From Hyphomicrobium methylovorum (lineage in GTDB: Bacteria; Pseudomonadota; Alphaproteobacteria; Rhizobiales; Hyphomicrobiaceae): DNA of 64,000 nucleotides. The stretch is from contig NZ_QHJE01000001.1 of the NCBI RefSeq assembly GCF_013626205.1, positions 2,770,501 through 2,834,500 on the forward strand, read 5' to 3'. Numbering within the stretch: the stretch's first letter is position 1; every line of letters starts with the position of its first letter. The translations under genes and the position numbers were made by a program. Shown piece after piece: positions 14,501-28,646 of this stretch. The notes under the pieces are model-generated. The model was given only the letters and a program-made list of their open reading frames with translations, searched no databases and had not been told where the DNA came from.

Positions 14501-14847
14501 GTTAGAAGCCGCGTTAGCGCTCCCCAGCCGTCACGATTTTTCGGATATGCGAGAATGTCTGGCGCATCGTCTGTGAAGGCCAGGCGTGCGCCGGTTGCGA
14601 GTTTGAATTTTTTTGTCTGCTCTTTGAGCCAAACAGGGTCGATTTCGGGAGGAAGAGAAACGGTGCCTTCCTTGATGTCCCTCAGAGCGGTGTAGGCGCG
14701 CACGACGCCAGCAACCGTGTTGCGGTCGGCAATGCCGATGCCGCGATGACCGAGCAGCAGAGCCGTCAGCACGAGATCGCGCGCGGTTGAGGCTCCGCGC
14801 AGGAATGAGAAATTCGTTGCCGTGGAAAATTCCGTATATCCCGTCAT
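11569..14847 (-). CDS. dnaE2: Error-prone DNA polymerase DnaE2
   Basis: Alternative C-family DNA polymerase alpha subunit that carries out mutagenic translesion synthesis after DNA damage. 1092 residues from the ATG at 14847, whose first bases overlap the imuB stop (ATGA), so translation is coupled. The N-terminal PHP domain starts at EFSTATNFSFLRGAS; the palm catalytic acids lie in PPDIDVDFEHERREE with a second aspartate segment later (IEWDKDDIDALGLMKVDVLA); helix-hairpin-helix and OB regions follow (AIFLTLEDETGITNVVLW). Length and the lack of a long tau-binding tail separate it from replicative DnaE1. It is the third gene of the SOS-controlled imuA-imuB-dnaE2 cassette. Confidence 0.96.
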   Translation of the reverse strand: MTGYTEFSTATNFSFLRGASTARDLVLTALLLGHRGIGIADRNTVAGVVRAYTALRDIKEGTVSLPPEIDPVWLKEQTKKFKLATGARLAFTDDAPDILAYPKNRDGWGALTRLLTIGNRRAKKGDCILTIEDLLTHAHDLVLIVMPGRKLEGLEHLLPRLRDAAPRSVWLAACMLRRGDDRRRLAQLKQIAAQASVPLLATNDVLYATPEQRDLQDVLTCIRSGTTIFEAGRVLEANAERHLKTPEEMARLFRDCPEAIDETQNVLKQIGFSLDQLKYEYPDEPVPPGWEPQSWLEELTQRCAIQRYPEGVPKKVADLLESELKLIKQLEYARYFLTIHDIVRYAESQSILCQGRGSAANSAVCYVLGITAVDPSAHDVLFARFISTERKEPPDIDVDFEHERREEVIQYIYEKYGRHRAGIAATVISYRPRSAIRDVGKALGLSEDITARLANTQWGSWGSDISNAQIRQAGLDPENPTLRRAVDFAIRILGFPRHLSQHVGGFILARKRLDEIVPVCNAAMADRTFIEWDKDDIDALGLMKVDVLALGMLTCIRKSFDLLREHEDIDYDLASIPQEQKDVYDMLCKGDSLGVFQVESRAQMNMLPRLKPREFYDLVIQVAIVRPGPIQGDMVHPYLRRRAGLEDVSFPAPLHGDPNELRDVLQKTMGVPLFQEQAMKLAMVAAKFSDEEANGLRRAMATFRNVGTIGTFENLMISRMVERGYEPDFARRCFGQIKGFGSYGFPESHAASFAKLVYISSFIKCRHPAVFACALLNAQPMGFYAPAQIVRDAREHGVEARAADINASLWDNTLERTETGALALRLGFRQIDGFAESDAKKLIEARTKPYASVEDLAVRARLFSRPLRLLADADAFRSIGLDRREAMWAVRRLPDDDPLPLFAAADARELAAEPDAQLPTMPLAEHITTDYQTVRLSLKGHPMEILRPVFAAERIATCLETSNKPDGAPTRTAGVVLVRQRPGAGNAIFLTLEDETGITNVVLWARLFERYRKEVMGARLIVVEGKVQRSQEGVVHLMAKRVFDRTNELRRLSEAQDMLTDPNQVDDTIRQQTMRASHPREVRILPKSRDFH

Positions 14848-16472
14848 GCGAACAGGCCGTGTATGAACCACGGAGGATGAGCCTGACCCTCTCCGTATAA
14901 GCCTTGACGAAAGATCCAGAAGCGGCAGCCCATTGCGTCTTCGACGCGGTAATAATCGCGATCCGGCTCGCCGTGCGCCTTCCGCCACCATTCCGGTGCG
15001 ATGCGTTCCGGCCCTTCCGCGCGCACGACATCATGCAGCATACGCCGCCAGCGGAATCGGCGCGGTGGTCCATCCGGAACTTCCGCAAGCGCTTCGATGG
15101 GCTGGGGTGGATCGAACAGATGGTGAGGACGCAATGGAGGTTCGCCCGCTTCTGGTGAGGTCCAGGAGGTTTGTGCTTTCACTTTAGCGAACATCGTATC
15201 GGCAGGGACGAGGCGATCCGCGCGCGAAGGGTTGTGCGTGTTCTCCGTTTCGAAGCGCAGCACGCGGTCGCGACCGAAACGGACGATGAGCCGATCAATG
15301 AGAGCGCCAACCGCTTCCATTTCCCTCATGCGTGCGTCTTCCATCACGTTCATCAGCGGCGATTGTGCAGCGATGAGGTTTTCGGTGATGGCGATGGTCA
15401 GACGAATGACATCGAAGCCGAAGCCTGCTTCGATCGGCTCGGCCAGCGTGTCGAGTCGTTCGCGGTAGAGCTTCAGGATCGTTGCAGCTTCGCGTGAGGG
15501 ACGTCCGGTCTCGACGGTCAACCTGCGGACGTGTCCGTCGCTGCGGAAGAAGCTTGCTTCGAAGGTGCGGCCGCCTTCATCACGGGCTTCGAGTGCGCGC
15601 GCGGCTTCCGCGATGAGGTCTGCGAGGACAGCTTCAAGTGCTTCCGTTTGGCTCAAGGGCTCTGCAAACCGGCGCTCGACGGAGATGACAGGTTCCGGCC
15701 GAAGCGGCGCGAGGGGGGCGATTTCCTGGCTGAGCGTGCGGTGCAGTTGCGTTATGAAGGACTGCCCGAAGCGCGCGGCCAGAACTTGCGGCGGGCGCGC
15801 GGCGACATCGCCGATGGTTTTGAGTCCAGCGCGTGTGAGTGCAACAATCGTTTCCCGTTCCAAGCCTGCGAGCGCGGTAACCGGCAATTTTGAGACCGCG
15901 CGCTCGTCCTCTCCTTCGCGCACGATGGCGGTGCGGCTGAAGCGGGCGAGGGCGCGGGATGCGTCCGGCGTTCCAGCAATGGTGGCGCGCGCTTCGAAGC
16001 CTTGGCGTGCAAGCCAGTCTATGATTTCCGTTCGTAGACCCGCCTCACCGTTCCACAGATGCGCGCATCCCGTGACGTCAAGGATGAGGCCATTGGGATG
16101 ATCGAACGCAACGGTGGGCGTATAACGTTCGCAGAGAAGCTCGAGGCGTTCGATGAGCCAAGCGTCAGCCTTCGCGTCTCTGTCGGCGACGGTAAGCTGA
16201 GGAATACGGGCACGCGCGTCGGCCAATGCAAGGCCCGGTGCCAGGCCCAGCCGCGCTGCGTGCCGATCGACAGCGAAGATCCGCAACGCGCCCTTCTCTT
16301 TCTCGACGATGACGAGAGGGCGCTGTGCTTCATCCGGCCCGGCGCCATTCCTGCGTCGCTGCAGCCGGTCGGCTGAGAGGAAGGGAAACCACAGAGCTAG
16401 ATACCGGCGCGACGCTTTCTTGCGGGTCTTGGAAACATTTTCGGTCACGGTTCCACTCCACACGCCACTCAT
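14844..16472 (-). CDS. imuB: ImuB, inactive Y-family polymerase adaptor
   Basis: Scaffold of the ImuA-ImuB-DnaE2 mutasome; it recruits DnaE2 to the beta clamp. 542 residues. The N-terminus RRYLALWFPFLSADRLQRR replaces the metal-binding motif of active Y-family polymerases, so the expected catalytic aspartates are missing, as known for ImuB. The little-finger and C-terminal parts follow, with a basic tail. The start is taken at 16472, overlapping the 3' end of imuA by about 143 bases; the conserved part begins near residue 21, so a later non-ATG start giving a shorter overlap is possible. The stop overlaps the dnaE2 start. Confidence 0.93.
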   Translation of the reverse strand: MSGVWSGTVTENVSKTRKKASRRYLALWFPFLSADRLQRRRNGAGPDEAQRPLVIVEKEKGALRIFAVDRHAARLGLAPGLALADARARIPQLTVADRDAKADAWLIERLELLCERYTPTVAFDHPNGLILDVTGCAHLWNGEAGLRTEIIDWLARQGFEARATIAGTPDASRALARFSRTAIVREGEDERAVSKLPVTALAGLERETIVALTRAGLKTIGDVAARPPQVLAARFGQSFITQLHRTLSQEIAPLAPLRPEPVISVERRFAEPLSQTEALEAVLADLIAEAARALEARDEGGRTFEASFFRSDGHVRRLTVETGRPSREAATILKLYRERLDTLAEPIEAGFGFDVIRLTIAITENLIAAQSPLMNVMEDARMREMEAVGALIDRLIVRFGRDRVLRFETENTHNPSRADRLVPADTMFAKVKAQTSWTSPEAGEPPLRPHHLFDPPQPIEALAEVPDGPPRRFRWRRMLHDVVRAEGPERIAPEWWRKAHGEPDRDYYRVEDAMGCRFWIFRQGLYGEGQAHPPWFIHGLFA

Positions 16473-17118
16473 GCCCCGTCGTGCCGCCGCGGTGACGGAG
16501 CAAATTCAACTTGAAAGCAGGAAGCCCCGGCGCGTTCGCTTCGAGTGGACGAGAGGGTAGGGATTCAACACTCCAGCGTGTTATGGCGGCGCTTTGGCCG
16601 GGGGATGCCGCGGCGCGCAGCATGAAGATCGGGACGTTGGATTTCACGGATGCCAGTGACAAGCGTCGGCTCGCAGTGAAGTCGAGTGTTTTAGGTTCTC
16701 CCCAAAGCTCGATGATGACAGCGCCGAGCGCGGCGCAGCGCAGGGCTTGCTCACCCGCCCGCAGAACGCCTTCACCGTTGGGTGCGCGAACGAAAACGAG
16801 GCGGGCAGGGTCGAGGCCGAGTTCGGCAAATCCCGAGGCGCTGGGGCTGCCCGTTTCGCGGTCAAGAAACTGTTGGCGGGCCCATAGGATCGGCTTCGCA
16901 CCGGCTGCCTTCAAAGCGAGGAGAGCGGCAAAACCCGTCGCGGCACCGAAGTGGACGGCAGCGCTGGGATAGACTTCGTGGACGCCTTGCCGGGCAAGTC
17001 CGCCGCCTGTCACCTCGTCGATCCGGCTGATACCGAAGGGGATGCGATCTACTGGATTTCCCGAGGGGCGCTCGCGTTCCAGGAGCTCCCGCAGAGCTGG
17101 AATGGTATCTGGATGCAT
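16330..17118 (-). CDS. imuA: ImuA, RecA/SulA-like mutasome protein
   Basis: First gene of the damage-inducible mutagenesis cassette. 262 residues. It has a RecA-like core without a standard Walker A: RIPFGISRIDEVTGGGLARQ at the start and VHEVYPSAAVHFGAATGFA where the P-loop would lie. The Cys/Ala-rich ALRCAALGAVIIELWGEP is the Walker B region. Known ImuA proteins bind ImuB and possibly RecA. The ATG at 17118 is eight bases from an SOS box, and its likely Shine-Dalgarno, AGGAA on the minus strand at 17131-17127, lies inside that box. The gene overlaps imuB at its 3' end. Confidence 0.9.
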   Translation of the reverse strand: MHPDTIPALRELLERERPSGNPVDRIPFGISRIDEVTGGGLARQGVHEVYPSAAVHFGAATGFAALLALKAAGAKPILWARQQFLDRETGSPSASGFAELGLDPARLVFVRAPNGEGVLRAGEQALRCAALGAVIIELWGEPKTLDFTASRRLSLASVKSNVPIFMLRAAASPGQSAAITRWSVESLPSRPLEANAPGLPAFKLNLLRHRGGTTGHEWRVEWNRDRKCFQDPQESVAPVSSSVVSLPLSRPAAATQEWRRAG

Positions 17119-17260: not shown

Positions 17261-18151
17261 CTAGTCAGCGCCGACGTGGAGTTCGCGGGCCGCTGAGTTC
17301 ACGCGCTCTTTCGCGGCGGGATCACCGGCGAATGCTTCCAGTGCTTTGGCCAATGCAGCTTTTGCTGCTGTCTTGTCGCCGAGCGTCATGCGCGATTGCA
17401 TCAGACGCACCCAGCCGTCCTCATCGTTCGGAGACGCTTCAAGCCGCTTGGCCAATCGGTCGACCATTCCGCGGATCATGTCGTCGCGCTGGGCATCCGT
17501 GTTTTCCTCGGCTGCCATGTTGCCGGGATTTGAAAGCGGCGTTTCACTCGCAGTCTGCGCTGCTTTTGCTGCCTCAAGTCCTTTCTGAGCTTCGACGTCG
17601 TTCGGATCGATCTTGCGCGCCGTCTCGTAGGCCTTCTCAGCATCCGCCGCTTGCTCAGTATTGAGGTATGACCAGCCGAGCATCTTCCAACCCTTCACGT
17701 CGCCGGGCTCTTTTTCGAGGCGTGCGACAAGCATTGCAATCATCGTATTGACGTCAGGCAGGCTGGCGGCGTTCGACGCGGTCGACATCGGCGCTGCGGA
17801 ATGGGCGTTTGGATCGATCTTCTTCGTGAATGCGCGCAGAGCATCCAACGCGGCTTGATCCGAATTTTCGTCCACGTCATTTGCGGTGCTTTCCGCAATC
17901 GGAGTCGACGCGCTGATGGTATCAGCGAGTTCACTCAATTCGGCCATCGGAATTCGCGCGAAGCTGTAAACGGCAATCGCAGATATCAGAACCAATACGA
18001 GACCAGACGTGCGGGCGCCGGTCGCAACCCACCGTCTCACAAGTGCCAAGACCGGCCGGTGTCCATCAATGTTGAGGCGCAACGACAGCAGCGTGATCGC
18101 CATCAACGTGGCAGCGGTTCCGGTTACGACCGATACGTAAAGCTGCGTCAT
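17261..18151 (-). CDS. CcmI-like TPR protein for cytochrome c maturation
   Basis: Probable chaperone that holds apocytochrome c for heme attachment. 296 residues from the ATG at 18151, preceded by AGGAGA. Two membrane segments at the N-terminus (VSVVTGTAATLMAITLLSL and SGLVLVLISAIAVYSFA) are followed by periplasmic tetratricopeptide-like repeats: LVARLEKEPGDVKGWKMLGW with AEKAYETARKIDPNDVEA, and a second set near the C-terminus (LAKRLEASPNDEDGWVRLM). These phrases are typical of CcmI/CycH and NrfG. It lies 35 bases downstream of a ten-heme cytochrome gene in the same direction, suggesting a maturation factor dedicated to this cluster rather than the general one. Confidence 0.75.
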   Translation of the reverse strand: MTQLYVSVVTGTAATLMAITLLSLRLNIDGHRPVLALVRRWVATGARTSGLVLVLISAIAVYSFARIPMAELSELADTISASTPIAESTANDVDENSDQAALDALRAFTKKIDPNAHSAAPMSTASNAASLPDVNTMIAMLVARLEKEPGDVKGWKMLGWSYLNTEQAADAEKAYETARKIDPNDVEAQKGLEAAKAAQTASETPLSNPGNMAAEENTDAQRDDMIRGMVDRLAKRLEASPNDEDGWVRLMQSRMTLGDKTAAKAALAKALEAFAGDPAAKERVNSAARELHVGAD

Positions 18152-18186
18152 GTCCAATCTCCTGCGAAATAGTTTGACGGACTTGC

Positions 18187-20625
18187 CTAAGGCGTCGGGA
18201 TCCTGGTGCTCATGATTGGTGAGGTCACACCGTTCACATGATACTTGTGGCAGGTGAGGCAATCTTGCCGAGTCATGTTGCTCTGGTGACAGGTCTGGCA
18301 GAGTTCCTTTTTCACTCCGCCGAAGTTCGATGCAAAAACGTGCGGGTTGCCCTGCTCGTAGCTCTTCAGATAGGAGCGGTCTTTCTCCAGGTCGTGGCAG
18401 GTCATGCAGCCGCGATTTTCAGTCATGCTGAAGTGCGGTTGGTGCGCGAACGTCGTGAACCTTCCGCGTTTTGTCTCGGCCGATGATTGAGCGAAATTGA
18501 CGAGGCGTCCCTTGGTTTGAATGTCGTCAACGCTATGGCATTTCGTGCAAGAGCCTTGCGCGTCTTTGCCGATGAGTGACTCAAAAACGGCTGCCGCCGG
18601 ACTCGCATTACCCTTCGGGGCTTGGGGGCCGGTTATGAAAAGCCACGAGTAGATGAACCTGTCTTTATGTCCGGTCGGCCGGTAGAAAATCGCATAGTCC
18701 TGCCGATACCAACCGCCATATTGGGCCCAGCTTTCAGGATCGACGCCACTGTCGATGCTGATAATCGGTGTAGCCTGCGTCTGGGTGTTGGCTGCCGTGT
18801 CTGCGAAAGACTTTGCTCCCGGTACAGATAGATCCGGCTCTGCTGGTTTCTTGATGCCTTTGTTGAGTGCCTTGATTTCGCGGCGCTCGCTTTCGTTCGG
18901 GTAGAGCAGATCGTCCGACTGGTCGGCTGATTTCGCCGGAGTCTGATTGTCGGCTATCTGCGTCGGCTTTGCCTTGCTGTTCGACATCACTGGATTTTCA
19001 GCGTCGCTTTCGGTGTCGACTGCTGGAGCCACGCTCTTGAGACCAGCTCTCATTGCCGGAGGTCGCTTTGCGGCAGAAGACGTATCTTTATCTGTGTCGT
19101 GCTTGCTGCTCGCGGTTTCCGTTTTGCCCGCTACCAGGCACTGGCCGAGGATGCGGATTGCACATGGCGGGGTATCCAGTTTGTTTGCTTTATTCGCAGC
19201 CTTTTGAGATCCAGCCTCATCACTAGTGTCCGCTGGCGATGTTTCATCATGAGCGCCGGGTTCGTTATTCGCCGTGTTGCTTTTCTCGGGTGCGTCCTCA
19301 GAAACTGCAACGGCCGGTGTGGCTTGCGGTGCCATTGCGATCCAACTGCTGTCTTTTTGATCGCCCGTGACACGCAGATTGGCCATCTCGGTTGGGAGAT
19401 TTGGCAGCCACTGTTGTTGTGCGCTGACGAGCACGTCGCGTGGGATGCTCGCGGTGAGTGCGGTTACGAGATCCGTGCTGAGTTTTGCGCCGCCAGAAAT
19501 ATTGAGATCGGCCAGAACGTCTGAACCTTTTCCGAGGATCAGAGAATTGAAAAGAGATTTGATTTCCCAAACGAGATTTGTCACCGCTGCGATCTGGCTG
19601 TCTTTCGCGCGCGAAAGATCCTGAAGGTTTAAGCTGCCGGTCGTTTTGAGAATTGCTCTGCCACGCGCGGTGCGGCCGATCATAATCTGCATGAAGGGCG
19701 TGAGCTCGGCTTCTGACGTGCTCGGCCACTCGCCGATCGAAGCTTTCTTGTCTTTCAGCGATTGCATGTCGATGCCGGGTAGCGAGAGAAATGCGATACC
19801 TTTCGGGCCGGTCGCTCGTTCTTTCCCGGTGATCTGGTCGAGATGGCACGCCGCACAGGTTTTTTCGAACGGTGCGACCGCCATGATGCGTCTGTCGTCG
19901 CGGCTGTTGTGGCATGTCGAGCATGTGGCGGGGATGAGGTTCGCGCGATCCTTCTTCGCGACTTCGGGATAGTGTTTATTGAAATGCTCCGCGTGGTCGT
20001 AGACGATGCGTGTGCGTCTTTTAAACGGATATCCATCGAACTTTGGATGCTGGCCATCGAAGCTGTCGAACTTCACGACGTGGCACGAGCGGCATTGCTC
20101 ATTCGAGATTTTATTCAGCTTGAAATTGGCGCCTTGGTGCTCCTGGTGACACGTCGCGCAGGAAAGCCCGTGTGACACCATTTCATTGGTTGGAAACGCG
20201 ATGCTTTGAGCGCGCGCGGATGCCGGCACGTTCGATACAACTTTCATCAGTCGCGCAGTGCTTTGCTTCAGCACATCGACAGAAGCTCCGTGGGGATTGA
20301 ATGCCGTCTCCGGCATGTTGTGACAGGTGAGGCAGGCCTTGCTATCGGCGTGTGGTTCCCCAGGAATGAGACCTTGAATCCAGCTCACCTTTCCGTTGCC
20401 GCTCTGCGCGTGGCAGCCGTAGCAATTTTTGATGCTGCTATGGGCGCTCGTCAGCGGACCGGGCATGAGAAGCTGCGTGCCGTTTGAGAGAATGAAGGCC
20501 AGGCTTGCGAAAGCGAGGGTTCCCAGTGCCGTATATTTTGCAATCCGATCGCGCAGCGATTGCGGCTTGGCTGGCGCATCCCGCTTCAGGAGACGGAAAG
20601 CTCTGCTCCACAACGGTCGCTGCAT
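18187..20625 (-). CDS. Membrane-anchored decaheme cytochrome c
   Basis: Electron-carrying cytochrome with ten CXXCH heme sites. About 812 residues from the ATG at 20625, which shares a base with the stop of the upstream gene (TGATG); two GTG codons just upstream could add two residues. A single hydrophobic anchor lies near residues 35-50. Six hemes fall between residues 70 and 263 (CYGCH, CLTCH, CATCH, CRSCH, CSTCH, CAACH) and four between 695 and 795 (CTKCH, CMTCH, CQTCH, CLTCH), counting from the first GTG. The intervening ~430 residues have no heme site: a structured part to ~425, then a Ser/Asp/Lys/Ala-rich linker to ~600. The ten hemes recall MtrA/PioA in number, but the layout differs. 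Predicted periplasmic, anchored to the inner membrane. Confidence 0.9.
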   Translation of the reverse strand: MQRPLWSRAFRLLKRDAPAKPQSLRDRIAKYTALGTLAFASLAFILSNGTQLLMPGPLTSAHSSIKNCYGCHAQSGNGKVSWIQGLIPGEPHADSKACLTCHNMPETAFNPHGASVDVLKQSTARLMKVVSNVPASARAQSIAFPTNEMVSHGLSCATCHQEHQGANFKLNKISNEQCRSCHVVKFDSFDGQHPKFDGYPFKRRTRIVYDHAEHFNKHYPEVAKKDRANLIPATCSTCHNSRDDRRIMAVAPFEKTCAACHLDQITGKERATGPKGIAFLSLPGIDMQSLKDKKASIGEWPSTSEAELTPFMQIMIGRTARGRAILKTTGSLNLQDLSRAKDSQIAAVTNLVWEIKSLFNSLILGKGSDVLADLNISGGAKLSTDLVTALTASIPRDVLVSAQQQWLPNLPTEMANLRVTGDQKDSSWIAMAPQATPAVAVSEDAPEKSNTANNEPGAHDETSPADTSDEAGSQKAANKANKLDTPPCAIRILGQCLVAGKTETASSKHDTDKDTSSAAKRPPAMRAGLKSVAPAVDTESDAENPVMSNSKAKPTQIADNQTPAKSADQSDDLLYPNESERREIKALNKGIKKPAEPDLSVPGAKSFADTAANTQTQATPIISIDSGVDPESWAQYGGWYRQDYAIFYRPTGHKDRFIYSWLFITGPQAPKGNASPAAAVFESLIGKDAQGSCTKCHSVDDIQTKGRLVNFAQSSAETKRGRFTTFAHQPHFSMTENRGCMTCHDLEKDRSYLKSYEQGNPHVFASNFGGVKKELCQTCHQSNMTRQDCLTCHKYHVNGVTSPIMSTRIPTP

Positions 20626-21560
20626 CACCACGCCCCCGACGAAAAGGCATAGACGACGAGGACATGCAGTATCGTCATAACGACGAGCGAATATGTGATC
20701 GGAACGTGTATGAACAGCCAGCCTTTGGTGAGGCCAAGATAGACACGCGCGAAATCCAACTTGTCCTTATCGATGACGAGACTCTTGATCGCGGCCAGCT
20801 TCTCTTGGCCTCGCGCATCGACGTACCGCGATAGGTTATCGATCTCGTGGGTCAGTTTTTTAAGGTGGTGCTGGGATCCGATGAGGTGCGCAGTGGCGTT
20901 GCGCGGACCTTCAAAGAAGTCTTGCAAGTGTGTGGTGTAGAGGTCCGCGATCCAGGCGTCGTGGGGTGGCGTGGGCAAAGGAAGCGCGGGTTCGTCCTGG
21001 TCGATTTGCGCTACGGTCATTTGGATGTCGCGTGCGAGATCGGCACGCAATTCTGGGATGCGATCAAAGGTGACGCGGTCCGGAATTTCGCCCTTCGCGT
21101 GAAGCCACCAAGCGAGATAGGTGCCGAAGATTCCACTCAGCGTCACCAACACGAGGGCGGCCCATAGCATCCATTCGAAGCCGCTGTCCGGGAGTGAAAA
21201 ATCAGTGTGCGAGAGAAATGCGGCGATGAGCAAATAGCCGAGGAAGATATGGAATTTTTGCCAGCGCCTTGCGGATTTGGGTGACAGACTTTCCGTTTTG
21301 ATAGCGATGTGAAAGCAGACTTGGAGGCTCATGCCGCCGGCCAGTACCCAGCCGTCGAAGTAGCGCGGGTCGCGAAGCCCGTTGCCGTAGATCCAGACGA
21401 GCCAGAACAGACCGACGGATATCGTCGCAATCGAAAGCGCGAGTAGACTTCGGCTTACGAAATAGCCCAAAGCGCGCTGAGATTTCGCGATTGGCCCGCG
21501 CGGCGAGTGGTTGCTTCTTGACGCCACCCATCGCGGCATTTGTTTCCCCGTCAGGCCCAT
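20625..21560 (-). CDS. Putative two-heme cytochrome b membrane protein
   Basis: Predicted to carry electrons across the inner membrane. 311 residues with five hydrophobic segments near residues 38-59, 68-88, 104-118, 129-154 and 280-307. Helix 3 has His104 and His118, and helix 5 has His285 and His299. Both pairs are spaced HX13H, the arrangement that binds two stacked hemes b in cytochrome b and in NOX/ferric-reductase membrane domains. Between helices 4 and 5 lies a ~125-residue charged, His-rich soluble insertion. No FAD or NAD domain is fused, but a separate reductase gene stands two genes upstream. Its stop overlaps the start of the decaheme gene. The family is not one I can name. Confidence 0.75.
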   Translation of the reverse strand: MGLTGKQMPRWVASRSNHSPRGPIAKSQRALGYFVSRSLLALSIATISVGLFWLVWIYGNGLRDPRYFDGWVLAGGMSLQVCFHIAIKTESLSPKSARRWQKFHIFLGYLLIAAFLSHTDFSLPDSGFEWMLWAALVLVTLSGIFGTYLAWWLHAKGEIPDRVTFDRIPELRADLARDIQMTVAQIDQDEPALPLPTPPHDAWIADLYTTHLQDFFEGPRNATAHLIGSQHHLKKLTHEIDNLSRYVDARGQEKLAAIKSLVIDKDKLDFARVYLGLTKGWLFIHVPITYSLVVMTILHVLVVYAFSSGAW

Positions 21561-21582
21561 GCTGCTTGCCCCTCGACTATGT

Positions 21583-22674
21583 TCAATGGGGTGCGCTTAC
21601 GTCGGCGGCGGTTCTTGCGGCGCCTTTGAATTTGTCCGGTCTGGGAATGAAGCTGTCCAAACCGGACATTGTGCTGCCGTCGTATGTCTCGGTGATGCGC
21701 TCGAGGAGTTTGGAGATGCCATCTGCTGCAGCCGTCAGGCGACTTTCATTGTTCAGCTTCAATCCAGCGGAATGAGAAAATTCGACGATCTTCGAAATTT
21801 CCGGGACATTCGGGGCGGCTTTCGCTGCCGCCGCGAGCAGCTTGCGCGCCCGGTCGACGCGTGACGCCATTTCGAATGCATAGGGCTTTCGTTCAGTCGC
21901 TTTGCTGAGCGCGCGCAATGCGGTTTCGAGTTCGACGCCGAGACCTACGAGATAAAGCATGCGCTTGCGCGCTGCGTTTGCCGGCACATTCTCTTTGCCC
22001 TTGGAGTGCCAAGTGTTGTGCCGAACTTCGCCTTGTGACCAGGACACGAGCTCAAACGCGCTGCCGGCATGATGGCCGCCTTTGTTCACAAGGTCCTCGC
22101 GCGGCACGACGTGGCAACCATAACAGTTCTTTGCAAGCTGATAGATTGCGCGAGGCCGGATCATTCCTTTGGAGTCGGCCTGCTTCCAACGCTCTTGTGC
22201 CTCCGTCTTACTTTCTGTCTTCGCTGTTTTGCCGCTGTAACTGCTGTGGACTTTGATCCAATCTTTCGCAGGGCTGTGACATGACTCGCATGAGATGCCT
22301 GCGATTGCTTCTTGTTCAGTCGTCTTCTGCTGCACAGTGAAATGGCAATCACGGCATAAGCTTTCTGACTTGATGCGCCGTACGCCCATTCGTTTCGCAA
22401 TCTGGCTCGCTTCGAGATCGCGCGGCATGTTGCGGAACGTGCTGAAGTGATGCGAGCCCTTCCAAGCCGCAACTTCCTGCTTGTGACATTCGGCACAGAC
22501 GTTCGGGCCGACCGTCTTGGTCGGATCAGATGCAGCGGCGCTGTAAGCGGCAAAGCCGAAAATCATCAGCACTCCTGAAAGTTTCGTCGCGAGCGACCGC
22601 AGTCGGGTGTTGCGAGAACCGAGATGTCGGATTGTTCTATTCGTGCCCACGGCGACCAGTCGCGCTCCGCTCAA
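21583..22674 (-). CDS. Tetraheme cytochrome c, c554-like
   Basis: Secreted periplasmic electron carrier. Up to 363 residues from a TTG at 22674 that overlaps the stop of the reductase gene (TTGA); GTG at 22650 is an alternative, since the signal peptide (RSLATKLSGVLMIFGFAAYSA, cleaved after about residue 48) needs an upstream start. Four CXXCH sites occur at residues 60 (CAECH), 107 (CRDCH), 129 (CESCH) and 184 (CYGCH). The spacing and phrases such as CHKQEVAAWKGSHHF resemble the cytochrome c554 family, known in nitrifiers as the electron acceptor of hydroxylamine oxidoreductase. The C-terminal ~130 residues are helical and heme-free. Only 22 bases separate it from the cytochrome b gene. Confidence 0.85.
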   Translation of the reverse strand: MSGARLVAVGTNRTIRHLGSRNTRLRSLATKLSGVLMIFGFAAYSAAASDPTKTVGPNVCAECHKQEVAAWKGSHHFSTFRNMPRDLEASQIAKRMGVRRIKSESLCRDCHFTVQQKTTEQEAIAGISCESCHSPAKDWIKVHSSYSGKTAKTESKTEAQERWKQADSKGMIRPRAIYQLAKNCYGCHVVPREDLVNKGGHHAGSAFELVSWSQGEVRHNTWHSKGKENVPANAARKRMLYLVGLGVELETALRALSKATERKPYAFEMASRVDRARKLLAAAAKAAPNVPEISKIVEFSHSAGLKLNNESRLTAAADGISKLLERITETYDGSTMSGLDSFIPRPDKFKGAARTAADVSAPH

Positions 22675-23774
22675 CGATCGTATCCTGCATCGGCAAGCGT
22701 ATGCGGCAGTATCAGGTCGTTGCTGTGCATGCGCGTGTAATCATCAATGCGTCGGCGTCTCGGCTGACTTGCAGGCTCCGTGAGCCGTCGCGCGGCGCGC
22801 GCGAGCGCACCTCGTTGTACTGGGTCGGCGGAGTTCGGCAGGAAGGGATCGGCGTAGCAAACCGCGCCGATGCGTTCGGCGATCTCCTTGATCGCATCGA
22901 CCATTCCGGGTGCGCCGCAGGCATAGAGGACGTCGGTTGGAAGCAATCGCGGCAGATATTCCGTCGGCCGACCCTGCATCACGACGTTGGTCAAGCTTTG
23001 AGGTGTGCTGCAGATCGGCGCGACCATGACATTCGGAAAGCGCGCGAGCTGTGCAAGTGCCGGAGCCATATAAAGCGACTCGATCGTGCGGCCGCCCGCG
23101 ATGATCATCATTCGGCGTTCGGGATTTTCGCGAAGTGCCGCGACGGCGATAGACCAGATCGGCGCGAACCCGGTATTGGTGGCGACGAGGATCATCCGGC
23201 CGTCGAGATTGGGCCGGAAGTGCGCCGAGCCATAAGGCCCGGCAACTTTCACTCGATGACCAACCTTGATGTCTTTGCCAAGAGATGACGTGACGCGTCC
23301 GCTCTCCATCCGCCGGACATGAAGCCAAATAGAACGACTTTTCGAATTGCCACGAAGGGGATGGGTAAAGCTGAACGGGCGGCTCGGAAAGCCGTGAAAA
23401 GTTATCTGGGCGTACTGTCCGGCGTGAAAGGGGAGTGTGCAGTCTGTCGTGATGCCGACTTCCATTACGTCCGGCGATAGCGGCAACAGTGAACTCAGTA
23501 CGCCTTCAATCGTACGCACGTCGGATTGCTGACGCGTCTCTATCACCACGTCGCTGAGGATTCGGCACTGGCAAGCGTGTACGATTCCGGACTCGACGCC
23601 TTTTCCGCCCTGCACTTTGCCAGATACGAGGCGTACGCAGCACGTGCCGCAGTGTCCGGCGCGGCAGCTGTAGGGCAGGTCTACGCCGTTGTTCAAAGCG
23701 ACGTCGAGCAGTAACTCGCCATGCCGGGTTTGAAAGCTGCTCGCATTTACAGTGACTTGGTGATGTCTCGACAT
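22671..23774 (-). CDS. 2Fe-2S / FAD / NAD(P)H oxidoreductase
   Basis: Soluble cytoplasmic electron-transfer flavoprotein of the ferredoxin-reductase type. 367 residues. Residues 1-80 are a plant-type ferredoxin with cluster ligands Cys37, Cys42, Cys45 and probably Cys68 (SCRAGHCGTC ... HACQ). An FAD domain follows with RPFSFTHP, then an NAD(P) domain with AGGRTIESLY and the CGAPGMVD motif. The same order occurs in the reductase parts of methane and phenol monooxygenases and in glucoseen reductases. A ~60-residue basic C-terminal tail is extra. No oxygenase gene is nearby; instead it heads an operon of heme proteins, so NAD(P)H oxidation feeding a membrane cytochrome b is the likeliest role. 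Confidence 0.88.
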   Translation of the reverse strand: MSRHHQVTVNASSFQTRHGELLLDVALNNGVDLPYSCRAGHCGTCCVRLVSGKVQGGKGVESGIVHACQCRILSDVVIETRQQSDVRTIEGVLSSLLPLSPDVMEVGITTDCTLPFHAGQYAQITFHGFPSRPFSFTHPLRGNSKSRSIWLHVRRMESGRVTSSLGKDIKVGHRVKVAGPYGSAHFRPNLDGRMILVATNTGFAPIWSIAVAALRENPERRMMIIAGGRTIESLYMAPALAQLARFPNVMVAPICSTPQSLTNVVMQGRPTEYLPRLLPTDVLYACGAPGMVDAIKEIAERIGAVCYADPFLPNSADPVQRGALARAARRLTEPASQPRRRRIDDYTRMHSNDLILPHTLADAGYDR

Positions 23775-24316
23775 TACGCAATCCTACAAAGATATCGAGT
23801 GACGCTCCTATGGAGCGACGGGAGTTTTCGCCGGAATTGGAACTCGGGCGAAAGGCATTTTTCTCGCTAATCCGGCATCATGGTCAGATAGTGGTTCTTT
23901 GAAGAGTTTTTTGAAAATGCAGAAATGCTAAATTGAATTTGTTGAGATCGACGGATGGCGTGACGAATTAAAAGGAAAATGGAATTAGGCTTATGAGCAA
24001 TAGATATATATTGTTCGAAACGCGCTTTTTGATTTCACGAATTGCCTCGATAATACAAGGTTTTGTGGCGCGCCCAAGCATGGCTCGGCGGATTTTTGTT
24101 GGATCTTCTGGCAGAGTCGTCATTTCGTTTTATTTCAAGATGTGAGCTCGGTATTTATTCCGGTTTTGCCGAAAGGTCGGCCATATCGCGGCCCATTTTC
24201 GAATATCTTTAAATGATCAGGCATCAATCGTTTGTATGGCCGTTTATCTTCGTTCTTGGCCTCGATACCTGGATTGATATGCCGCCCTGACATGTATTGA
24301 TTACAGGGATAAGGCA
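23775..24316. other. Long divergent intergenic region of the cytochrome locus
   Basis: About 540 bases, clearly richer in A+T than the flanking genes, between the reductase operon and the pentaheme cytochrome. It must hold the promoters for both directions. No open frame here looks like protein. ATGAT-N5-ATCAA at 24213-24227 resembles an FNR site but has five rather than four spacer bases. No confident promoter hexamers are called. Confidence 0.5.
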
Positions 24317-26158
24317 ATGAAGCGATTATTCAATTTTGCGATTGTCTCTTGCGCGGTCGTGGGCGTGGGCTCGATCTGTGCACCCTCGCTTCGTCAGGAT
24401 GCTATCGCCGGACCCGGGGCGGTCGATCAATCCGAAATACAGCGCCAGCTGATTATTACGCATACGGGACAACCCGATGCGTCAGCGGCTGCCGGTAAAG
24501 ACGAAGCTGGTATCTCTGTCAGCGATGAAGCGTTATCGCTCTATCCGACGGCTGCCCAATGCGGCGAGTGTCATAAGCAGATCTATGATGAGTGGTCGTC
24601 GTCGCAGCATGCCTATGCGTCGATCTCGCCGATGTTCCACAAATTTGAGCAGAAGTTCACCTCAATGACTCAGGGGACGGTCGGCACGTTCTGTGTTCGC
24701 TGTCACCAACAGGTTGGCACGCAGCTTGGCGAAAAGCGCGAAACGCCGCTATGGCAACGTAGCCAGATTTCGCGCGAAGGCGTGACGTGCATCACATGCC
24801 ACAGGGTCAAGGAGCAATATGGCAAGGTCAACGGCGAGCGTCGCGTCGAGCCGGGCAAGATCTACGAACCGGTTTACGGAAGTGGAGAGAAGAGCGCGAT
24901 CAAGAATGTGCGCGCCAATAAGGAGACCTATTCCGTTAAAACGAGCGCCAACGGTCGCGGCAATGACATTCACAAAGGGATGATCAAGAACGATCAGATC
25001 ACGAAGTCCGAGTTCTGCGTCAGTTGCCATCAGGTGGCGGTGAATCTTGGGATCAAGCTTGAGATCGTTTGGGATCAGTATCGCGATAGCCCGGCTCGCA
25101 AAGCAGGCGTTAGCTGCCAGGACTGCCACATGGGCAAGGCGCCGGGAAAGCCTGATGGGTATGCGAAAGCACCGTCAGCAATCGTCGGGGGTAAGGAGAT
25201 CAATCCTGGGCGACGGCACGCCAATCACCGCTTTATCGGTCCGGGTTATTCGATCGCGCACCCTGGAATCTTTCCGCATAATCCGAAGGCGCTCACCACC
25301 AGCGTCGAGGACTGGTTGAAGTTTGATTGGCGCGCGGGTTGGGGCACGGCGCAGTTCGAAGACAAAGTTGCGGGCGGTAAGATCAAAGTCAAATTTCCGA
25401 AGCGTTGGGCCGATCCGAATGACCGTGAGGACGCGCGGCAGATCATTGGCGAGAACATCGCGAAGCTCGATGAACGTGACAAACTTCGAAAGAAGGTCAT
25501 GGAGAATTCGAGCAAGGTTGATGGGCCATACATCGAGGGCACGCCAAGTGTCGGCACGGATCTGGCGTTCACTTACAAGATTAAGAACGTCAATCCGGGG
25601 CACAATCTGCCGTCTGGTTCGCTAGGTGCGCAGCCGCAGCTTTGGGTGAACGTCGCGCTCGTCGATCCGGATGGGCATAACATTTGGGAGTCGGGATATG
25701 TCGACAGCAATGGCGACATGGCCGATTTGCACAGTCTGGATGTTGCTGCCGGGCGCATCGATACAGATCAGCAGCTCATGCATTTCCAGACCAAGTTCTT
25801 GACGACGAACGTCAAGGGCACCGACCGCGAAATGTATTTGCCGGTGAATTTCGATATCGATCCGCTGCCGCAACTTCGTCCGCCGCAAATTCCGACGACG
25901 GTTCTCAATCATCCGCCGTTGGTGCGGATGGAGAACCACTCGCTGGCACCGCTGGCGGAGAAGAAAGCGGCGTATCGCGTGCCGGCCAGCTTGATCAAGA
26001 AGCCGGGCAAATATCAGCTCGCGTTTCGCATGCGAAGCCGAGCCGAGCCGATCTACTTCATGCGCTTCGTTGGAGCGACCAAGGCAATGGAGCAAGCCAT
26101 GAATGAGCGGATCATGAACTTCCATGACTTCGCCGTCGAGGTTGACGTCAAAGGCTAA
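24317..26158 (+). CDS. Secreted pentaheme cytochrome c with long beta-rich C-terminal domain
   Basis: 613 residues with a signal peptide (about 1-31). Five CXXCH sites lie at residues 82 (CGECH), 126 (CVRCH), 158 (CITCH), 234 (CVSCH) and 267 (CQDCH); the first is in the ECHKQIYDEWSSSQHAYAS pattern of the c554/c-prime multiheme family. Several free histidines (for example HANHRF near 301-305) could be distal ligands. From about residue 400 onward the heme-free half looks like beta-sandwich sequence (YKIKNVNPGHNLPSGS..., WVNVALVDPDGHNIWESGY). It is the first gene of the divergent arm and precedes a beta-barrel protein by about 125 bases. A catalytic role cannot be excluded. Confidence 0.85.
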   Translation: MKRLFNFAIVSCAVVGVGSICAPSLRQDAIAGPGAVDQSEIQRQLIITHTGQPDASAAAGKDEAGISVSDEALSLYPTAAQCGECHKQIYDEWSSSQHAYASISPMFHKFEQKFTSMTQGTVGTFCVRCHQQVGTQLGEKRETPLWQRSQISREGVTCITCHRVKEQYGKVNGERRVEPGKIYEPVYGSGEKSAIKNVRANKETYSVKTSANGRGNDIHKGMIKNDQITKSEFCVSCHQVAVNLGIKLEIVWDQYRDSPARKAGVSCQDCHMGKAPGKPDGYAKAPSAIVGGKEINPGRRHANHRFIGPGYSIAHPGIFPHNPKALTTSVEDWLKFDWRAGWGTAQFEDKVAGGKIKVKFPKRWADPNDREDARQIIGENIAKLDERDKLRKKVMENSSKVDGPYIEGTPSVGTDLAFTYKIKNVNPGHNLPSGSLGAQPQLWVNVALVDPDGHNIWESGYVDSNGDMADLHSLDVAAGRIDTDQQLMHFQTKFLTTNVKGTDREMYLPVNFDIDPLPQLRPPQIPTTVLNHPPLVRMENHSLAPLAEKKAAYRVPASLIKKPGKYQLAFRMRSRAEPIYFMRFVGATKAMEQAMNERIMNFHDFAVEVDVKG

Positions 26159-26284
26159 CACTGAACCACAAGCGCATTTCGGATTTGGACACTCAGTCCA
26201 AACGCGGGTCCGAAGCATCTCCGAAGACTCTTGCGAGCTGAGCAGAAAAAACTCTCGCCGGAGCCATGACGCTGGAGCTTCTAC

Positions 26285-27961
26285 GTGACTCGCTATTCGA
26301 ATGCTGATCTTCGGTTCCTTACGGGGGCTTCGACAGTTGCTCTGGCGCTGATGGCGGGCGGTTACCTGCTGACCTCCGTTTCAGCCGCGGAAACCGAAAC
26401 AGGCAAAAGCGGCAATGATCCCACCCGGAATGAGACTTGGATTGCGAAGACCTATGTCGTCGGTTCGAAGGCTGGCGCGAATGCAAACGACAAAGCGCTG
26501 GCTGATACAGACAAGGACGCCCGCGCTAAAGAGGTATCTGACAAGGGATCACAATCGACTTCAGCACCTAAGCGCAAAAAGAGAATCACGACATCGACCA
26601 AGTCGGCTTTCCGGCCTGGTCCGACGTATGAGCGGAAATACGATGCTAAGGAGCAACTCGATATTTATGGCGGCAAGGGCGCCGTTGAGCCGCCGCGTCC
26701 GCTGCTCGAAGTTGGTCGCGAGCAGTACACATCCGGCATATTCGACGAGAGCAGCACGGTTCTCGGCAAATTGAATCCGCTGCTGCCAGGCTTAGCGGTC
26801 TATGGCGATTGGCGCACGGCGATTGCCTACAATAGGAACAACGGGAAGGACATTGCGCAGGTTGCGACGCGGCTCAATCTCGACGTGGACTTCAAAATCA
26901 CCGCGACGGAGCGGATCCATGCTTTCTTCACGCCGTTTCAGGATGGAAATGCGAAGTTCACGCGCTTTGAATTTGGCGGCCGTGATGGCGATCAGCGATT
27001 CAATGCGGAATTTGATGCCGAGCCGCAAACCTTATTCTTCGAAGGTGATTTTGGCTCGCTTTATTCCGGCTTCTCGGGCAAGCAAGCGGGCTTCGACTTG
27101 CCGTTTACCGTCGGGCTCTTCCCTCTGTTCCTGCAGAACGGAATTTGGGCGAACGACGCGATACTCGGCGGCGCGGTCTCGCTTCCCGCGAAAAACTCTG
27201 CAGCGTTGGGGCTTTCAAACTTCGACATCACCTTTTTCGCCGCGTTCGATAACATTGATAATGCGAGCTTCACGCGGGCGAATGGGACGGTGGACAACGA
27301 CAACGCTCATCTCTTCGGCGTTACGGCATTCGTCGATGCCTTTAACGGATACGTCGAAGCGGGTTACGGCTTCCTGCAGGGCACAGGCATCCAAGAGGGT
27401 GTCGAGCAGCACTTTCTGACGGCCGCGTATTCTCGGCGCTATGCCAACACGATTTCCAACTCGACGCGCGTGTTTGCGAACTTCGGTGACGATGGGCGAG
27501 GGAACGGCGACGGTCTGGCCATCATCTCAGAAAACAGTCTGATCACGTCGCTGCCGAGTACACTTCTTCCTTACGCTAATTTCTTTGTCGGCTTCGGAAA
27601 GCCCGAGCCGCTGGTTGACGGAAACAATGCGGGTATTCTGAAGAACGTCGGCATCAACTTTGAGACTGACGCGCTAACCGGGTATCCGAAACTGGACGAT
27701 ACGGCGTCCAACACATTCGGTGGCGCGCTTGGTTTGCAGTATCTTTTCAATCTGGATCAGCAACTCGTATTCGAGGTTGCGACAGTCCAGCCGTTCGAGA
27801 ATGACGGCATCGGCGCAAGGCATGCGCAGTATGGATTTGGGGTTCGCTATCAGATTCCGATCACGCGGTCTTGGCTGTTCCGCGCCGACGCGACGTATCA
27901 AATCCAGGAACATGGAGACGATAACTTCGGCTTCCGCACGGAGCTTCGCAGCAAGTTCTGA
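26285..27961 (+). CDS. Outer-membrane beta-barrel protein, putative porin of the cytochrome locus
   Basis: 558 residues from a GTG at 26285 with GGAG seven bases upstream. A signal peptide occupies about residues 1-36. Residues ~37-140 are polar and Lys/Asp-rich, then ~400 residues of alternating hydrophobic and polar sequence with Gly and aromatic residues (VYGDWRTAIAYNRN, GYVEAGYGFLQG, FGVRYQIPITRSWLFRADATY) end in Phe, the usual outer-membrane barrel C-terminus. I cannot place it in MtrB/PioB by sequence, and it lacks an obvious CXXC. Location after a pentaheme cytochrome suggests a heme-conducting or substrate-admitting pore. The following yceI gene is convergent. Confidence 0.75.
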   Translation: MTRYSNADLRFLTGASTVALALMAGGYLLTSVSAAETETGKSGNDPTRNETWIAKTYVVGSKAGANANDKALADTDKDARAKEVSDKGSQSTSAPKRKKRITTSTKSAFRPGPTYERKYDAKEQLDIYGGKGAVEPPRPLLEVGREQYTSGIFDESSTVLGKLNPLLPGLAVYGDWRTAIAYNRNNGKDIAQVATRLNLDVDFKITATERIHAFFTPFQDGNAKFTRFEFGGRDGDQRFNAEFDAEPQTLFFEGDFGSLYSGFSGKQAGFDLPFTVGLFPLFLQNGIWANDAILGGAVSLPAKNSAALGLSNFDITFFAAFDNIDNASFTRANGTVDNDNAHLFGVTAFVDAFNGYVEAGYGFLQGTGIQEGVEQHFLTAAYSRRYANTISNSTRVFANFGDDGRGNGDGLAIISENSLITSLPSTLLPYANFFVGFGKPEPLVDGNNAGILKNVGINFETDALTGYPKLDDTASNTFGGALGLQYLFNLDQQLVFEVATVQPFENDGIGARHAQYGFGVRYQIPITRSWLFRADATYQIQEHGDDNFGFRTELRSKF

Positions 27962-28031: not shown

Positions 28032-28646
28032 TCACTTCTTTGGTCGGACGATTGCATCGATTTCGATATCGATGTCGTCATCGACCATTGCCTGATAGTC
28101 GGTCATCTTGAATGCGCTGCGCTGGATGCGCGTTGTTGCGAGGAATTTGCGAGCACCGGTGTCGTGTTTCAGCGCAGGGTCGTCATGAGGTTCCAGACTG
28201 ACTTTGAGTTCGACCGGCTTAGTGATGCCGTTGACAGTTATTTCACCCGATACATCGGCGGCTGTGGGCGAGTTGGCGCGCACGGCGAGGCTTTTGAAGG
28301 CGATGACGGGTGATGACTTTACGTTGAAAAAGGATTCACCCTTTAGCTTGTCGTCCACGATCGCTTCGCCGGTGGTCAGGCTGGCTGTGGCAATCGAGGC
28401 ATTGATCTTGCTCTTTTGGGGCGCGGCTTCATCGTAATCGAGCGTGCCGCTGACTTTGGTGAAGCGGCCGCGCTGTTTCGAAAGGGCCATCGTGTAGATA
28501 AAGCGGACTTCGGTGCGCCGCTTGTCGAACTCGAAACGCGTGGCGTGTGCTGTTGGCGCCCACGCTGCCAATAATTCTGCAGCGAGCATCAGGGAAATGG
28601 CGGTTCTCATCGCGGCGGATGGGATTGGCGAAAGCGTCGGTTTCAT
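28032..28646 (-). CDS. YceI-family periplasmic lipid-binding protein
   Basis: 204 residues with an N-terminal signal peptide (ISLMLAAELLAAWAPTAHA). The mature part matches YceI: FEFDKRRTEVRFIYTMALSK at the start, SGTLDYDEAAP, a central GESFFNVKSSPVIAFKS, EITVNGITKPVELKV and a late RSAFKMTDYQ. The family forms a lipocalin-like barrel that binds isoprenoids such as quinone-like molecules in the periplasm. Its start codon overlaps the stop of a small membrane-protein gene (ATGA). It stands tail-to-tail with the outer-membrane barrel of the cytochrome locus, 70 bases apart. A link to quinone supply for that locus is possible but unproven. Confidence 0.88.
   Translation of the reverse strand: MKPTLSPIPSAAMRTAISLMLAAELLAAWAPTAHATRFEFDKRRTEVRFIYTMALSKQRGRFTKVSGTLDYDEAAPQKSKINASIATASLTTGEAIVDDKLKGESFFNVKSSPVIAFKSLAVRANSPTAADVSGEITVNGITKPVELKVSLEPHDDPALKHDTGARKFLATTRIQRSAFKMTDYQAMVDDDIDIEIDAIVRPKK

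Follow-up and report, generated by a model that had tools for sequence, protein, structure and literature searches.

The cluster of multiheme cytochrome genes that lies at positions 18187-27961 of a 64,000-nucleotide stretch of the Hyphomicrobium methylovorum genome (hereafter the window) raises the question of where its electrons come from and where they go. Six predicted genes make up the cluster: a nicotinamide-flavin reductase (RED), a tetraheme cytochrome (TETRA), a membrane protein with two b hemes (CYTB), a decaheme cytochrome (DECA), a pentaheme cytochrome (PENTA) and a probable porin (PORIN). On balance, we lean towards the view that they form a two-module PCC4 system of Subgroup I, in which an inner wire would carry electrons from NAD(P)H to multiheme cytochromes, and an exchangeable pentaheme/porin exit would pass them outward.

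All six genes were confirmed in the list of open reading frames (ORFs) of the window. A first-pass annotation of this DNA had placed the same genes at the same coordinates, and its gene identities and heme motifs stand, the porin being the one weak part. Four genes are transcribed from the reverse strand: RED (22671-23774; 367 amino acids, aa), TETRA (21583-22674; 363 aa), CYTB (20625-21560; 311 aa) and DECA (18187-20631; 814 aa). RED overlaps TETRA by 4 nt, CYTB overlaps DECA by 7 nt, and 22 nt separate TETRA from CYTB; because of these overlaps and the 22-nt spacing, RED-TETRA-CYTB-DECA looks like a single operon. PENTA (24317-26158; 613 aa) and PORIN (26285-27961; 558 aa) are transcribed from the forward strand in the opposite direction, across a divergent gap of 542 nt. 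Counting of CXXCH motifs yielded 19 sites (10 in DECA, 4 in TETRA and 5 in PENTA), the number given previously, over a span that we measured as ∼6.9 kb and not the ∼8 kb stated before. The six frames of the whole window contain 24 such sites, just 5 of them outside these three genes.

RED is predicted to be a soluble protein with an N-terminal 2Fe-2S domain followed by FAD- and NAD-binding domains: Fer2 (1.1e-13), FAD_binding_6 and NAD_binding_1 each scored above the Pfam cut-off, and the hydropathy profile revealed zero transmembrane-like (TM-like) stretches. Its top NCBIfam model was BenC-like, but the score of 104.6 bits fell short of the cut-off, which is 430. TETRA, which we take to be periplasmic, is a member of the C554 family (PF13435 at 1.4e-15 in Pfam); a phmmer search of the PDB matched it distantly to cytochrome c554 (1bvb; 7.4e-06), and its 4 CXXCH motifs are kept in 36 of the 36 complete clusters of type I (defined below). 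CYTB, the putative inner-membrane two-heme b protein, contains two WX3HX13H motifs (W100-X3-H104-X13-H118 and W281-X3-H285-X13-H299) and an SGXXG sequence (S142-G143-G146). The four histidines, the serine and both glycines of SGXXG, and P287 are invariant among 18 diverse aligned sequences, that of the window included. An AlphaFold model of CYTB, with a modest predicted local distance difference test score (pLDDT) of 65.6, displays five long helices and a helical insert; hydropathy at a threshold of 1.6 marked three regions. The large domain between the fourth and fifth transmembrane helices (TM4-TM5) would lie in the cytoplasm. The Pfam scan of CYTB at E<=1 listed DUF4079 (0.052), Gemini_mov (0.076) and SdpI (0.45), none of them above its cut-off. 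DECA has a single TM-like stretch (residues 30-48), the presumed N-terminal membrane anchor, and exceeds the Pfam cut-offs of PF14522, PF09699 and PF14537; phmmer against the PDB gave one match, at an E value of 0.94.

In PENTA, all 5 CXXCH motifs are confined to residues 82-271, leaving a long heme-free C-terminal domain, and the TM-like residues 4-22 were taken as a signal peptide. PF13435 was detected at 1.3e-09 in Pfam, and phmmer against the PDB found distant cytochrome matches only. The Pfam scan of PORIN at E<=1 was empty, as was its phmmer search of the PDB. A porin gene was detected in 36 of the 41 type-I loci, adjoining PENTA in each of them, and the C-terminal KF of the protein is invariant in a 10-row alignment. 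From its strand pattern, its position and the terminal Phe, PORIN is probably an outer-membrane beta-barrel.

By heme counts, motifs and gene content, the cluster of the window matches PCC4 Subgroup I, as judged on the published description (PMC5566968) and not by direct comparison with the IMG sequences. PCC4 was predicted in 2017 by He et al., from Hyphomicrobium in the case of Subgroup I. As the main text describes it, the system comprises a porin, cytochromes of 4, 5 and 10 hemes and other redox proteins; its inner-membrane protein has five helices, with two WX3HX13H motifs and SGXXG conserved; and in Subgroup I the pfam13247 Fe-S gene is absent and a redox gene adjoins that of the tetraheme cytochrome (PMC5566968). 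In the window, cytochromes with heme-motif counts of 4, 5 and 10 share one cluster, CYTB has both WX3HX13H motifs and SGXXG, the cluster map contains no pfam13247-type gene, and RED overlaps TETRA; we found no difference in gene content from Subgroup I so described. A protein search of named records yielded 13 related loci; five carry the label Hyphomicrobium, and H. zavarzinii is among these. Because clusters of the PCC4 kind have been known since 2017, the earlier claim of a new combination of parts, which compared the genes with Mtr and Pio and overlooked PCC4, is unsupported. The difference from the published work lies in the electron source: the main text of He et al. models a quinone link (PMC5566968), whereas we take the reductase to be the point of electron entry.

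Relatives of the cytochrome b were found in 60 of the 103 genomes of the family (in 45 as strong matches, with E below 1e-70), in 16/249 genomes of the order, in 64/385 genomes of a class sample (wider profile, E<=1e-10) and in 21/398 genomes of a phylum sample, seven of the last being short low-scoring matches. We mapped 154 loci, the window and 153 others, each up to 20 kb and labelled by profiles; since many come from related genera, they do not count as independent. Left unmapped were seven places with weak cytochrome b matches (G792; G1022 contig C257; G1039; G1048 contig C32; G593; G613; G519). The loci fall into four types and a remainder. Type I (41 loci) has a Fer2-FAD-NAD reductase; type II (41 loci) has a FAD-NAD-Fer2 reductase together with a protein that contains cyclic-nucleotide-binding (cNMP) and 4Fe-4S domains; in type III (33 loci), Pyr_redox_3 is fused to the cNMP/4Fe-4S protein; and in type IV (6 loci), Pyr_redox_2-BFD and the cytochrome b form a fusion. 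Another form (14 loci) has a Pyr_redox_3-like partner but lacks a separate decaheme cytochrome, and 19 loci are incomplete or odd. These assignments rest on Pfam checks of the reductase in the window, L046, L050, L067, L079, L081 and L056, and on profiles plus Fer2 position in the others. The first-pass annotation had proposed a search for the gene set as a conserved unit: an identical six-gene order, with porin and pentaheme genes pointing one way and those of reductase, tetraheme, cytochrome b and decaheme pointing the other, is shared by 36/41 type-I loci. By comparison, 28 of the 33 type-III loci consist of reductase, cytochrome b and decaheme alone.

The NAD(P)H link suggested previously gained support from this survey. 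A nicotinamide-flavin reductase lies within the locus, usually in the same gene string, in 120 of the 134 loci that contain the CYTB-DECA pair. Forty-one of the 120 reductases are of the Fer2-FAD-NAD form; 41 are FAD-NAD-Fer2 proteins accompanied by the cNMP/4Fe-4S protein and 3 are FAD-NAD-Fer2 proteins that stand without it; 31 are Pyr_redox_3 proteins fused to the cNMP/4Fe-4S protein; and 4 are Pyr_redox_2-BFD proteins fused to the cytochrome b. We take these four architectures to represent two flavoprotein superfamilies (FNR-type and pyridine nucleotide-disulphide oxidoreductase-type). The count includes a reductase 6.6 kb away in L072 and one clipped by the contig end in L120. For RED-like genes, five matches in the organism's own 3.45 Mb genome give a rough background of ∼3% per 20 kb, a figure without a matched control set. 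One case is a natural fusion in a genome of the same family (L056:8134-11587; G200), in which Pyr_redox_2, Rubredoxin_C, a BFD 2Fe-2S domain and the two-heme cytochrome b form one chain, followed by a 10-CXXCH protein; by profile, L129, L130, L131, L133 and L135 contain similar fusions. Since the fused L056 chain is devoid of both the TM4-TM5 domain and SGXXG, we suggest that the TM4-TM5 domain of the unfused proteins may dock the separate reductase. Collectively, the comparison with relatives suggests that the inner half of PCC4 draws its electrons from NAD(P)H. The kind of cluster was already known; no published statement of this electron source for PCC4 was found in the literature searched, which included the main text of PMC5566968 and not its supplement, where domain architectures are given.

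Co-variation points in the same direction. Across the 36 complete type-I clusters, distance correlations (rho) were 0.84 for RED-CYTB, 0.81 for CYTB-DECA and 0.76 for RED-DECA, with TETRA at 0.61-0.62. PENTA and PORIN correlated with each other at 0.65, whereas correlations between the two modules were only 0.17-0.35 (RED-PORIN, 0.22).

The strongest competitor, which we nevertheless consider unlikely, is the model of He et al., in which electrons from an extracellular donor, for example Fe(II) or Mn(II), reach the quinone pool through the cytochrome b and the reductase is accessory. It is the published model; its authors report hosts in an enrichment that oxidises pyrite, in a drinking-water filter and among marine iron oxidisers, and point out that such cytochrome b subunits are capable of electron exchange with quinones (PMC5566968). 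In the main text, electrons pass to the quinone pool and 'NADH' occurs once, in connection with Cyc2 (PMC5566968). A merely accessory reductase fits poorly with its recurrence beside CYTB-DECA in four architectures, of which one forms a single chain with the cytochrome b, and with the co-variation of RED with CYTB and DECA. Carbon fixation was a further line of comparison: RuBisCO is present in 5/45 family genomes in which the cytochrome b match is strong versus 14/58 of the others (10/58 once four weak matches are taken out). A role of PCC4 in autotrophy thus finds no support in the counts for the family; RuBisCO is no commoner in the first group, yet quinone-linked uptake does not need autotrophy.

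In the NAD(P)H-fed reading that we prefer, RED would oxidise NAD(P)H on the cytoplasmic side, its FAD acting ahead of its 2Fe-2S cluster, and would dock onto the large TM4-TM5 domain of CYTB. The two b hemes of CYTB would then carry the electrons across to DECA and TETRA on the periplasmic side of the inner membrane, and PENTA and PORIN would take them on, either as far as the outer membrane or through it. Reductant would in this way be discarded onto an extracellular acceptor, for example Fe(III), Mn(IV) or humics; alternatively, the flow would keep the outer cytochromes reduced.

Several observations weigh against this proposal. Four of the loci in which no reductase was counted have no contig end to excuse them (L042, L167, L190 and L191); nine others lie at a contig end or on a short contig (L053, L074, L098, L102, L108, L121, L143, L154 and L187), and L111 contains only a truncated reductase frame. 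Two of these loci, L187 and L191, have a Pyr_redox_3-like frame at their far end (∼9 kb off in L191), which we left uncounted. When the CYTB model was compared with the PDB by Foldseek, the best E value was 0.18, at the level of helical-bundle noise, and the AlphaFold prediction for PORIN, based on ten type-I sequences, gave an unusable model with beta strands at a pLDDT of 29.8; folding like that of NADPH oxidases (NOX), docking and the barrel are for these reasons without structural support. The outer proteins have higher mean identity (PENTA, 84%; PORIN, 77%) than those of the inner module, and their correlations may be lowered because they are more conserved. Since a neutral marker is also absent, the contrast between the modules is suggestive and short of proof. 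Finally, we selected 52 genomes for a mapped locus without PENTA, and the loci passed over were for the most part truncated at a contig end or lacking a decaheme gene of their own (82 of the 154 loci lacked a PENTA label). At E<=1e-20, no PENTA was found anywhere in 42 of these 52 genomes, which means that the inner module often functions without PENTA-PORIN. That inner modules without a porin might have their PENTA at another place in the genome proved true of just the other 10, in two of which (G037 and G038) it belongs to a second mapped cluster.

These last figures, together with the weak correlation between modules and the bare reductase-cytochrome b-decaheme loci of type III, favour another explanation, namely that the inner module passes NAD(P)H electrons to periplasmic acceptors or enzymes and that PENTA-PORIN is independent and merely linked to it. 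We regard this as improbable: PENTA-PORIN adjoins inner modules of three types, being found with types I and II and beside three type-III loci (L188, L189 and L194), and it accompanies the same RED-TETRA-CYTB-DECA set in 36/41 type-I loci. The system is modular, and an inner module by itself is no evidence for an outer-membrane conduit.

With regard to direction, the NAD+/NADH couple has a potential of about -320 mV and the cell interior is negative. Outflow from NAD(P)H descends both gradients and inflow climbs both; a wire linked directly to NAD(P) is therefore most likely to run outward unless bifurcation intervenes, by analogy with NADPH oxidases and ferric reductases. The reverse flow for reductive power that the first-pass annotation had allowed, here taken as direct reduction of NAD(P)+ by extracellular electrons through the wire for carbon fixation, is very unlikely: flavoprotein reductases can be reversible, and the genome of the window encodes a RuBisCO large subunit (G000:C1:3018533-3019456), as only 2/22 genomes of the genus do (this one included), yet Fe(II) should be incapable of the climb to about -320 mV against the membrane potential without bifurcation, and RuBisCO is not associated with the cluster across the family.

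The outward, NAD(P)H-fed wire that we favour resembles several known systems in part. PCC4 Subgroup II, reported from Zeta- and Gammaproteobacteria, other Alphaproteobacteria and Planctomycetes (PMC5566968), has the TETRA, CYTB, DECA, PENTA and PORIN families in common with the window, and its CYTB proteins in L042-L052 are 33-46% identical to that of the window; it differs by an extra cNMP-binding/4Fe-4S protein, a C-terminal Fer2 on the reductase and another gene order. A Methylobacter conduit, which is MtrA/MtrB-like with monoheme partners (PMC13322032), was rejected as a relative. The functional likeness to NADPH oxidases and ferric reductases consists in an NAD(P)H-FAD-two b heme pathway across the membrane with HX13H ligand pairs; CYTB differs in having no FRD (PF01794) match in Pfam, its reductase is a chain of its own with a 2Fe-2S domain, and the acceptors would be multiheme cytochromes. 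MtrAB, MtoAB and PioAB likewise combine an outer-membrane porin with periplasmic multiheme cytochromes, whereas the window has a separate NAD(P)H reductase and a cytochrome b in addition. Membership of the Mtr/Pio group was rejected on two counts. PORIN matches no Pfam family, and Pfam presumably holds a model for porins of the MtrB/PioB family. DECA has no DmsE-type match: at E<=1 it was not listed for the decaheme model TIGR03508, which we take to cover MtrA, and PENTA and TETRA, with 35.4 and 13.3 bits, stayed below its cut-off of 192.2.

More tentatively, and with less confidence than we attach to the two-module reading, PCC4 could be the outer-surface-wired member of a wide, so far unrecognised family of bacterial NAD(P)H-driven transmembrane wires that bypass the quinone pool. 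Such a family would combine a single cytochrome b, a multiheme cytochrome and nicotinamide flavoproteins of at least four architectures from two superfamilies, and would dissipate reductant outward, as NADPH oxidase does, with the pentaheme-porin exit as an option. The cyclic-nucleotide-binding 4Fe-4S protein of some types might gate the flow of electrons. An FHA-like domain is located near the N terminus of a type-III decaheme protein (L079:9132-11207), the only one scanned; with the cNMP-binding domains of its partner, it hints at regulated electron flow.

Other loci depart from the common pattern. Among the loci with no separate decaheme cytochrome, in two of three sequences read (L126:6332-8383 and L127:7797-11146, not L139), the cytochrome b is fused C-terminally to a segment with three CXXCH motifs; the partner in L127 is a divergent 4Fe-4S/Pyr_redox_3 protein. 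The decaheme cytochrome of Hyphomicrobium sp. WM.3.5 (L038:10026-12535) is divided between a pair of overlapping ORFs, one with 6 CXXCH motifs and the other with 4, which reflects either a genuine split or a sequencing frameshift. Stop-to-stop frames of ∼1300-1400 aa that combine 10 CXXCH motifs with LVIVD repeats lie near the cytochrome b-decaheme genes in L081 (14262-18494) and L191 (567-4556).

The cluster of the window is flanked by two further genes, both on the reverse strand. A CcmH/CycH-like TPR protein (17261-18262; PF23914, 5.2e-13), the start of which is probably internal to the ORF, may assist the maturation of cytochrome c; relatives (E<=1e-8) are present in 32/41 type-I loci versus 1/41 type-II loci. 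A YceI-family protein (28032-28646; PF04264, 1.5e-33) has relatives in 17/41 type-I loci versus 1/41 type-II loci, and is a frequent neighbour of uncertain role. Farther away, at 11569-17118, three ORFs resemble, on reading of the sequence, a DnaE2/ImuB/ImuA mutagenesis cassette.

Among the electron conduits of the cell envelope, the well-characterised ones are fed by quinols. If the reading presented here is true, a conserved porin-cytochrome system fed straight by NAD(P)H would constitute another energetic class, a wire that conserves no energy, and its likely role in methylotrophs would be redox balancing or metal reduction, not the Fe(II) oxidation suggested for PCC4. The reductase swaps and the natural fusion make the question of NAD(P)H as electron source directly testable in harmless, cultured strains of Hyphomicrobium.

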